64,000 nt of DNA, from contig NZ_BJDK01000009.1 in assembly GCF_005405105.1 (NCBI RefSeq), positions 1 to 64,000 of the forward strand, read 5' to 3'. The notes below the pieces were generated by a model that was not told the origin of the DNA, made no database searches, and worked only from the letters and a program-made list of their open reading frames with translations. The DNA comes from Lactiplantibacillus dongliensis (GTDB taxonomy: Bacteria > Bacillota > Bacilli > Lactobacillales > Lactobacillaceae). The position numbers were made by a program, and so were the translations under genes. Every line of letters begins with the position of its first letter. Within the stretch, counting starts at the first letter, position 1. This document shows positions 39,887-41,778 of this stretch, one piece after another.

Positions 39887-40435
39887 GTGAAACTGCAACA
39901 GCTGACTGAAACCGCGATTGGGGCGGCTTTAGCAATCATTCTAAGTTATTTAATTATTTTTCGAGCACCTCAGGGCGGTTCGATTTCATTAGTGATGGTG
40001 CCAATTCTGTGGATTGCGCTTAAAAATGGGGTGTGGGCGGGACTGCTCTGCGGGTTGATTACGGGCGCGGTGACGTTCATGTTTGGTGGTTTTTTTGTGG
40101 CACCGCTGCAAGTCCTGTTTGACTATGTCTTTGCTTTTGGGTCAATCGGACTGGCCGGTCTATTCTCTGAACCGGTGTTAGCGATGGCTGGCCAACACCA
40201 CCAACGTCGGCTGGTTGGCACGGTGATCTTAGCTGGTAGTTTAGCTGGTGTGAGCCGGCTATTATTTCATACGTTAGCTGGGATTGTATTCTACACGGCG
40301 TATGTGCCTAAAGGGCAGCCAGTGTGGTTGTATTCGCTCACCTATAATAGCTTATATGTGATTCCGGATACCATTTTGGCGATTGTCGTGGTGTTGGTAT
40401 TGGTTACCCGGGTGCCACGCTTGTTGCTGCGCTAG
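39887..40435 (+). CDS. thiT: ThiT-like thiamine ECF transporter S component
   Basis: A 182-residue membrane protein with about six helices. The segment RAPQGGSISLVMVPI matches the conserved thiamine-binding loop of ThiT, and the C-terminal YNSLYVIPD also fits. It would bind thiamine outside and work with the shared EcfA/EcfA'/EcfT module encoded elsewhere. Start GTG follows GGAGG. Confidence 0.8.
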   Translation: MKLQQLTETAIGAALAIILSYLIIFRAPQGGSISLVMVPILWIALKNGVWAGLLCGLITGAVTFMFGGFFVAPLQVLFDYVFAFGSIGLAGLFSEPVLAMAGQHHQRRLVGTVILAGSLAGVSRLLFHTLAGIVFYTAYVPKGQPVWLYSLTYNSLYVIPDTILAIVVVLVLVTRVPRLLLR

Positions 40436-40441
40436 TCCTGA

Positions 40442-40471
40442 TTGACAAGGTAACGGTTATCATGCTAGACT
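40442..40471 (+). promoter_or_regulatory. Promoter of the rsgA leader
   Basis: A consensus -35 TTGACA, an 18-bp spacer and extended -10 TGCTAGACT. Transcription would start near 40478. Confidence 0.7.
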
Positions 40472-40501
40472 AATAGCAATTAATTTAAGGAGGGTTGCAG
40501 T

Positions 40502-40519
40502 ATGTCGGTTAGTTGTTAA
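40502..40519 (+). CDS. Five-codon leader peptide MSVSC
   Basis: AAGGAGGG is seven bases before ATG, giving a near-ideal ribosome site for a frame of only five codons ending in TAA. It lies just after the promoter and before structured sequence leading to rsgA. I read it as a leader peptide that couples translation to folding of the leader. It could also be a remnant. Confidence 0.45.
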   Translation: MSVSC

Positions 40520-40539
40520 GTTTTTGAGTAACGATGTAA

Positions 40540-40670
40540 AAGTGGGGATATGTCCCACCTTATTTTCGTGTACCCTAATGACTTGATGACTTAACGCGAC
40601 AAACTGCCACCCGTAAACGGTCTTTTTGAGGTGCAGTGAGTAGCTAACTTACGGCGTCTTTTTTTGTCGC
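40540..40670 (+). promoter_or_regulatory. Attenuator-like structured leader of rsgA
   Basis: After a GTGGG/CCCAC hairpin (40542-40558), CCGTAA (40611-40616) can fold locally as CCGTAAACGG followed by TCTTTTT, or pair with TTACGG (40649-40654), which is followed by the longer T run TCTTTTTTTG. ACTGCCACC/GGTGCAGT (40603-40637) and GCGACAAA/TTTGTCGC (40596-40670) are further competing stems. These alternatives suggest termination/antitermination control. Confidence 0.5.
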
Positions 40671-40710
40671 CTGATTTAGGGTACCGGTATGAATGAAAGG
40701 ATTATTAAAA

Positions 40711-41778
40711 TTGACCATTGATTTAAAAGATTATGGGGTAACACCTCATTTTGAAACGGCTGCTAAAGCCCAGCCAGAATTAGTTTTAGCCCGGGTGACG
40801 GCACAACACCGGGAACAATACCGGGTAGTGACAACTCAAGGTGAACGCACGGTGCAAGTTGCGGGTAAGTTCAGTCATACCGTCGAAGATGTGACGAGCT
40901 TTCCGGCGGTTGGAGATTGGGTCTTAATCACGCCAACCAGTACGGCTGATGAACAGAGCGTCATCCAAGTCGTGTTGCCACGTCAAAGTGTCCTCGCTCG
41001 GGCCACTGCCAGTAATGGGCAGACCGGTCAACTGATTGCCGCTAACTTAGATACGATCTTTATCTGCATGTCGTTAAACGCGGACTTCAACGTTCGGCGA
41101 ATTGAACGTTATCTAACGATGGCTTGGGACAGTGGCGCCATGCCAGTAATTGTGCTGACTAAGGCGGATTTATGTGATGATCTTCCTGATAAGTTAGCGG
41201 CTTTGGCTGAAGTTAGCATGGGTGTCGACGTGATCACTTGTTCTTCAGCGACCGAAGCGGGTTTTGCTGAACTGCGAACTTATATCGACAGGGGTAAAAC
41301 AATTGCATTTGTCGGTTCATCGGGGGTTGGTAAGTCGACCTTGATTAACCATTTACTCGGTAAGACGCTGCTAGCAACAAAGACGATTCGGGCCGATGAT
41401 GACAAAGGTCGGCATGCCACAACGGCGCGCCAGCTACTAGTTTTGCCCACTGGTGGCGTTGTCATCGACACACCGGGCATGCGCGAATTACAACTGTATA
41501 CTGGTGATCTGTCGAAGACGTTTGAAGACATTACCGCTTTGGCACAACAATGTAAGTTTCGGAACTGTTCCCATCAGAGTGAACCTGGCTGTGCGGTGCA
41601 AGCCGCAATTGCGGCCGGTACTTTGGATGTGAAACGGTTCAAGAGTTATCAGAAATTACAAGCTGAAATGGCCTATAGTGGGATGAATGCGCGCCAACGG
41701 GAAAATGAAAAGATTAACCGCTTGTTTGGCAGTAAGGCCGCGATGAAAGCTGCAACGCGAGCGTTTAAAAATAAATAA
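40711..41778 (+). CDS. rsgA: Ribosome small-subunit GTPase RsgA
   Basis: A circularly permuted GTPase of about 355 residues that checks late 30S maturation. It has an N-terminal OB fold, G4 LTKADL, G1 GSSGVGKSTL, G3 DTPGM and a C-terminal zinc site CKFRNCSHQSEPGC. Start TTG 40711 is nine bases after AAAGGA; ATG 40693 overlaps that region and is less likely. It lies behind a structured leader with its own promoter. Lactobacilli may carry a second rsgA elsewhere, so this could be a specialised paralogue. Confidence 0.85.
   Translation: MTIDLKDYGVTPHFETAAKAQPELVLARVTAQHREQYRVVTTQGERTVQVAGKFSHTVEDVTSFPAVGDWVLITPTSTADEQSVIQVVLPRQSVLARATASNGQTGQLIAANLDTIFICMSLNADFNVRRIERYLTMAWDSGAMPVIVLTKADLCDDLPDKLAALAEVSMGVDVITCSSATEAGFAELRTYIDRGKTIAFVGSSGVGKSTLINHLLGKTLLATKTIRADDDKGRHATTARQLLVLPTGGVVIDTPGMRELQLYTGDLSKTFEDITALAQQCKFRNCSHQSEPGCAVQAAIAAGTLDVKRFKSYQKLQAEMAYSGMNARQRENEKINRLFGSKAAMKAATRAFKNK

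Follow-up and report, generated by a model that had tools for sequence, protein, structure and literature searches.

What kind of RsgA does the window encode, and what does the leader in front of its gene do? The window is the whole stretch of DNA analysed here, 64,000 nucleotides of Lactiplantibacillus dongliensis (contig NZ_BJDK01000009.1). An initial annotation had read the leader as a translation-sensing attenuator with a micro-ORF and mutually exclusive stems, by which ribosome activity would feed back on the assembly factor RsgA. The promoter, the strong SD, the MSVSC upstream ORF (uORF), CCGTAA (40611-40616), TTACGG (40649-40654) and the T run (40659-40665) were all found as annotated. 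The features are listed in Table 1. Judged from sequence comparison, the attenuator is real and conserved and is of a known mechanistic kind; the gene downstream is the unexpected part.

Table 1. Features of the leader and its neighbouring genes (positions in the window).
Feature	Position	Strand	Basis or remark
thiT, upstream neighbour of the leader	39887-40435		TIGR02357
Promoter-like TTGACA, 18-nt spacer with TG, TAGACT	40442-40471	+	similar in 25/28 relatives
SD of uORF, AAGGAGG	40487-40493	+	eight bases before ATG; anti-SD duplex -11.3 kcal/mol
P1 5' strand	40492-40522	+	covers SD end, start codon and entire uORF
uORF ATGTCGGTTAGTTGTTAA, MSVSC*, five codons	40502-40519	+	ATG invariant in 29 aligned leaders
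HP1 hairpin within P1	40540-40561	+	predicted fold
Conserved motif GTGTACCCTAA	40568-40578	+	alignment; can pair with post-terminator GGGTAC
P1 3' strand (anti-antiterminator), uORF-complementary	40580-40612	+	fold; cognate test 0/10000
Antiterminator 5' arm in the window, CTGCCACC	40604-40611	+	part of P1 3' strand
Intrinsic terminator T2	40629-40665	+	stem 40630-40658, T run 40659-40665
T2 5' arm GGTGCAG	40630-40636	+	partner of CTGCCACC in antiterminator
Post-terminator TTAGGGTAC	40676-40684	+	possible partner of GTACCCTAA (40570-40578) once T2 is read through; cognate test
SD of rsgA paralog, GAAAGGA	40695-40701	+	comparison with TTG-using relatives
RsgA-like GTPase paralog	40693-41778	+	PF03193, TIGR00157, tree; 361 aa from ATG 40693, 355 aa from TTG 40711

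The window protein matches PF03193 (RsgA GTPase domain) with 178.4 bits and TIGR00157 with 163.6 bits (cut-off 100). Both matches, the latter above cut-off, are common to it and canonical RsgA (YjeQ/CpgA). A canonical RsgA is encoded elsewhere in the same 3.1-Mb genome; it has 298 aa (the window paralog has 361 aa) and it matches the RsgA_N Pfam domain, for which the Pfam search gave no match in the window protein. A maximum-likelihood tree built from 74 proteins has a 100/100 branch between 30 canonical rows and 44 others, and the window gene falls on the non-canonical side, which ruled it out as the canonical RsgA orthologue. On the sequence criteria of a second, canonical copy, the 100/100 split and the absent RsgA_N domain, it was concluded that the window gene is a divergent paralog and not the housekeeping RsgA. 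Feedback on a housekeeping assembly factor is therefore not supported; at canonical rsgA an SD-preceded uORF was detected at just 5 of 30 loci, and a leader ORF is typical of the paralog. Canonical RsgA is present in 58 of 61 sampled family genomes (E <= 1e-60), whereas the window-type paralog is present in 58 of 251 (E <= 1e-50), and in 19 of the 21 genomes searched within the genus. The nearest named record found is a protein of Lactiplantibacillus songbeiensis (L057) with 98 per cent identity. In Lactiplantibacillus plantarum WCFS1 the probable orthologue is rsgA2 (lp_1687); rsgA2 is listed with the hydroxytyrosol-modulated genes in a published L. plantarum transcriptome (PMC7278804). Two candidate starts lie at 40693-40713, ATG 40693, which overlaps the SD, and the conserved TTG 40711; by comparison with relatives, translation probably starts at the TTG as it does in them.

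We collected 34 leaders of the window's type (class A) and kept 28 for the tests, excluding a truncated one (L073) and the near-duplicates L023, L025, L030, L036 and L052. Second-collection copies of the same records (e.g., L057, L058, L060 and L061) were outside the pairing tests and inside the 143-locus count given below. The sources are Lactiplantibacillus, other Lactobacillaceae, Megasphaera paucivorans, Oscillibacter valericigenes, and MAGs titled Clostridium thermobutyricum and Bacillota. In the tree the class-A genes are not a single clade: bootstraps give 4 to 6 changes, of which at least three are forced. The uORF is present in 19/19 genus genomes having the paralog. It has five codons in 25 and four codons in three of the 28 leaders and ends in TAA (18), TAG (9) or TGA (1); the peptides are MS(V/A)xx-like and loosely kept (MSVSC, MSVIR, MSAVQ, MLFIG, MAVID). 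The conserved micro-ORF of the initial annotation thus stands in 28/28 leaders. When 33 leaders including the window's were compared, 10 to 18 of the 18 uORF bases were paired downstream (for L023, with a partner past T2). A terminator hairpin followed by a T-rich run is found in 28/28, the run being assigned by hand for L028, L031, L037 and L079. A TTGAC-type box with a -10-like partner precedes 25 of them. In the window, two promoter-like sites of this kind were found against a mean of 0.9 in shuffles, so the promoter match alone proves little. As far as sequence can show, an internal transcription start has nothing in its favour: a scan found no promoter-like site inside the leader. One Paenibacillus gene (L065, upstream of 3001) is nested among the class-A genes without a visible leader, as if, from its sequence, it had been transferred without one.

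The window leader has a minimum free energy of -69.8, and none of its 200 dinucleotide-shuffled versions folds as well (mean -54.8, sd 4.07; z of the leader -3.69). In the minimum-energy structure 40492-40522 is paired with 40580-40612 (P1), and the motif GTGTACCC is located inside P1 together with HP1. Downstream of T2 come GGGTAC and then the ribosome site of the gene. RNAalifold on a MAFFT alignment of the relatives gave 0 pairs, and MAFFT splits the P1 3' strand. Since covariation on a standard alignment failed, alignment-free duplex tests were used, in which the summed duplex energy of each species' own (cognate) strands is compared with permutation among species. For P1 the cognate sum is -533.0 versus -390.5 permuted (sd 16.7; z -8.5, 0/10000, 28 leaders). 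The antiterminator gave z -7.7 over the whole region (0/10000; 26 of the 28 leaders, L028 and L031 also being excluded), z -4.9 for its middle (0/10000) and z -3.2 for its base (10/10000; both with 28 leaders). The long-range helix between the motif and the post-T2 sequence gave z -5.8 (0/10000, 28 leaders; 0/5000 in another run), and the arms of the SD-adjacent hairpin gave z -3.1 (11/10000, n = 21 of 28). Control pairs, whose strands should not meet, lay between z -0.6 and +1.5: uORF with post-T2 (z -0.4), with HP1 region (z +1.5) and with T2 region (z -0.6), and motif with HP1 region (z +0.7). As the species are related, the counts from permutation should not be read as exact probabilities, and the controls share this relatedness. 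By this comparison of sequences, the uORF is conserved and P1, the antiterminator and the long-range helix have coevolved. The covarying, mutually exclusive stems that the annotation had expected are thereby borne out in the relatives; their conservation, on which that proposal depended, is found.

The switch proposed in the annotation, CCGTAA pairing with TTACGG, fared differently. Among the 28 leaders the two sequences occur together only in the window and in its sister L020, and CCGTAA alone occurs in three further leaders. The hairpin is worth -2.8 kcal/mol with an open loop and -7.5 with inner pairs, versus -8.3 kcal/mol for the T2 stem in the window. It was dropped as a general switch; a window-specific second terminator hairpin is possible. 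The stems backed by comparison are instead P1 (uORF:40580-40612), the CTGCCACC:GGTGCAG antiterminator and the T2 stem. Pairing of the motif with the T2 loop was also dropped as a stand-alone element, the test on that pair being non-significant (269/5000 permutations). As the base of the antiterminator, paired with the T2 arm or loop, the motif is found in 17 of 28 leaders, the window not being one of them. For the antiterminator region of the window itself, folding is not better than that of shuffled sequence (z +0.9).

The arrangement resembles that of the vmlR leader of Bacillus subtilis. PMC9226507 describes a uORF encoding MIN and stem-loops SL-1 to SL-4, with uORF and stem-loop mutants tested. 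In that leader, too, a tiny uORF lies inside an anti-antiterminator, and an antiterminator with an apical hairpin and an intrinsic terminator are shared with class A (PMC9226507). In the authors' model the last hairpin, by the SD of the gene, is opened by pairing in the readthrough RNA (PMC9226507), a step that may have a counterpart here. The likeness is anatomical and known here from sequence; vmlR is an ABC-F gene with a 3-codon uORF, whereas the window has an RsgA-like GTPase behind five codons. A second likeness is to hflXr/rli80 of Listeria, where a GTPase that associates with the ribosome and is likewise present as a second copy stands behind a uORF-controlled attenuator (PMC6310831). 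Unlike the window system, that leader encodes a peptide of 14 aa carrying RLR as its stall motif, and the GTPase is of the HflX family (PMC6310831). The vmlR and hflXr leaders are the two closest printed leaders that we found, and both precede antibiotic-protection genes. The same anatomy in front of an RsgA-like GTPase is seen in Lactobacillaceae and, outside that family, in a small number of Bacillota. Among the papers on RsgA/EngC that were listed, none described such a leader in its title or the beginning of its abstract; coverage was incomplete, and the negative carries little weight.

From the sequence comparison, the folding predictions and the analogy, we consider it probable that the leader is a vmlR-type ribosome-mediated transcription attenuator in front of an accessory RsgA-like GTPase. 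When no ribosome is on the uORF, the uORF strand and the downstream strand would form P1, the anti-antiterminator, and T2 would then fire ahead of the gene. If a ribosome stalls or lingers on the uORF, it would cover one of the two P1 strands. The other strand, now free, could pair with sequence through the T2 5' arm, forming the antiterminator and letting RNA polymerase read through. In the readthrough RNA the motif GTACCC may pair with GGGTAC just 5' of the gene SD. In most relatives GGGTAC sits in the SD-adjacent hairpin, and its opening may add a translational layer. The signal would most likely be a ribosome that translation inhibitors have stalled, or one blocked in an equivalent way during initiation or directly after it. 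Which way control runs, what induces it, and the part that the protein would play when ribosomes stall or are damaged are inferred here.

A ribosome on the uORF was simulated by masking the uORF plus 12 bases downstream. With masked RNA ending at the T2 loop, the region of the T2 5' arm pairs with the motif-T2 stretch in 27/28 leaders, and the predicted antiterminator is often one long hairpin over an apical stem; the T2 5' arm is more engaged masked than unmasked in 21/28. In RNA extending through the T run, the mask drops the mean P(T2) from 0.93 to 0.75 (28 leaders, with T2 of L028 wrongly delimited in this computation). P(T2) falls by more than 0.1 in 13 leaders; in 15 it changes by 0.1 or less or is raised. 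The window goes from 0.90 free to 0.29 masked via CTGCCACC:GGTGCAG, and L059 goes from 0.98 to 0.13. In L020, which is 93 per cent identical to the window, the values are 0.98 and 0.95. T2 stays thermodynamically preferred in about half of the species, so control would need the antiterminator to form first (kinetic control). The accessibility of the gene SD in class A shows a small mean shift from 0.36 to 0.49, and the SD-adjacent hairpin of the window is weak (-3.4).

A different reading keeps the attenuator and changes the signal: the leader would sense the supply of competent 30S subunits, not drugs, in an autogenous-like loop set by the frequency of initiation on the uORF. The uORF is extremely short, an initiating ribosome would cover all five codons by the size of its footprint, and a maturation factor of the 30S subunit is among the relatives of the gene product, all of which suits such a loop. 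The sign, however, is wrong for simple feedback, as occupancy is predicted to turn the gene on and scarcity of 30S would turn it off, and canonical RsgA is mostly without such leaders (5/30). We regard this reading as unlikely. Much less probable is a ligand-binding riboswitch or protein-binding leader in which the uORF occurs by chance. Such an element could be expected to be long and structured with a conserved motif, as this leader is, but the SD, ATG and stop codon are kept while the stop type and the 4-5-codon length vary, and leaders of distant paralogs carry longer uORFs in other architectures. Rfam (release 15, gathering threshold) gave no match in the window, and over 10 related loci it found one cobalamin riboswitch and two tRNAs, none overlapping the leader. 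A promoter with a constitutive weak terminator and no regulation would agree with P(T2) staying high in most states and species, but is scarcely credible when three separate pairings coevolve and control strand pairs do not.

The ribosome-mediated attenuator is accompanied by other leader ORFs in the wider paralog family. A script found an SD-preceded uORF before 112 of 143 paralog loci (duplicates included), comprising 54/66 loci from Lactobacillaceae genomes and 58/77 from genome_contigs, and before 5/30 canonical rsgA loci (Lactobacillaceae only). The script guesses gene starts, some wrongly, and these counts err both ways: some hits are not leader ORFs (e.g., L044, L048, L139 and L151) and some weak-SD uORFs visible by eye are missed (L031, L046 and L150). 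At other loci, such as L065, L069, L070, L076, L081 and L087, no leader was seen by eye. Non-class-A leaders of other Lactobacillaceae and Clostridia have uORFs of 9 to 21 codons. An Ile-Val pair is present in 32 of 40 eye-picked uORFs (e.g., MLGIVMGVVTSLEDYKA, MTTNNEGIVLA and MLFIEKMDIVLAKEGIKIA). In class B, assigned by eye, a CCTCC-type sequence often follows the uORF, and its partner could be either the uORF's GGAGG or that of the gene. Translational attenuators of the ermC type are mentioned in PMC6310831. The class-B order (uORF, GGAGG-like sequence in or after the uORF, CCTCC-like sequence, GGAGG of the gene) is like that of ermC-type leaders. The class-B masking simulations gave no consistent on-state: the gene SD is unpaired with a mean of 0.36 free versus 0.20 stalled, and is higher stalled in 11 of 34 (34 of the 40 were scored). 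Complementarity at the RBS reached z < -2 in 23/95 non-class-A, 8/38 class-A and 4/30 canonical loci. Paralogs of Bacillaceae and Cyanobacteria have yet other uORF types, and actinobacterial relatives also have leader ORFs.

Class-A leaders are also found in front of another gene. Because MAFFT splits the P1 3' strand and RNAalifold returned no pairs, the class-A model (R1) was made sequence-only; run over 301 family genomes, it gave 54 matches at E <= 0.01 and 26 at E <= 1e-4. Placement was read for these 26, with 32 weaker ones left out. Just upstream of rsgA paralogs are 23 of them, most being the leaders used to build the model. One (L221, contig C25 of G069) is a class-A leader followed by a TTCACGCTCTAAAACGCGTTCAC-type repeat near the contig end. 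At L027 (contig C13), close to the end of another contig, an rsgA paralog lies behind sequence similar to this; an insertion or an assembly break has possibly split leader and gene. The other two, in G107 and G077, stand before a gene with an RNHCP domain (PF12647; tested on the L219 protein). By eye, both have a second, class-B-like leader after the class-A one (MHKNYTSASVR* and MFNNLASAIVR*). In L219 and L220 the leaders are in tandem, class A with its terminator and then class-B-like, before a single RNHCP gene.

Of 251 family genomes, six have an RNHCP match above cut-off. Two of these genes are behind a class-A leader, two follow an rsgA paralog and have their own leader, and two are fused to the paralog, so all six are tied to the paralog or its leader. 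RsgA-like GTPase and RNHCP are fused or neighbouring in L231 and L232 (G127, G213), L236 and L237 (G388, G346), and L229 and L230 (G150, G195), which argues for a functional link for RNHCP. Nothing relevant was found in the literature on the RNHCP domain. Tentatively, and with slightly less than even confidence, we propose that a leader-controlled RsgA-like subfamily and its RNHCP partner protect or rescue the small subunit during stalling, drug-induced or other, and are induced in cis by ribosomes on tiny leader ORFs. An outside hint, by analogy, at a stress-linked second RsgA copy is the RsgA/EngC pair SCO6149 and SCO5211 of S. coelicolor, one copy of which follows WblC and tetracycline according to PMC7157823. 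If the proposal is true, this would be a widespread undescribed inducible system, the small-subunit counterpart of what ABC-F proteins and HflXr do against large-subunit drugs. Together with the class-A anatomy before the paralog itself, the leader ORFs before its relatives and the leader before RNHCP would offer a role open to testing for two ribosome-linked families about which little is known, and an inducer screen ready for use in harmless laboratory lactobacilli.

Among 299 phylum genomes RNHCP is above cut-off in eight. In two of the eight it is part of a fusion with an RsgA domain that is roughly as far from the window type as from the canonical one; at the other six no RsgA was found within the roughly 3 kb examined. 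These six loci comprise one with a leader ORF ending in IVR, four with 16S-like 5' regions and one without a visible leader. Just upstream of RNHCP in L238 (1849-2005, minus strand) lies an element resembling the 3' major domain of 16S rRNA. It matches Rfam SSU_rRNA_bacteria (model 922-1376) with 60.5 bits against a gathering threshold of 50, L238 being the only locus with a match at this place. It is possibly an rRNA-mimic leader, which, if true, would point to RNHCP action on the 30S head. The 5' regions of L238, L239, L240 and L241 align with each other, and the RNHCP frame of L241 is broken.
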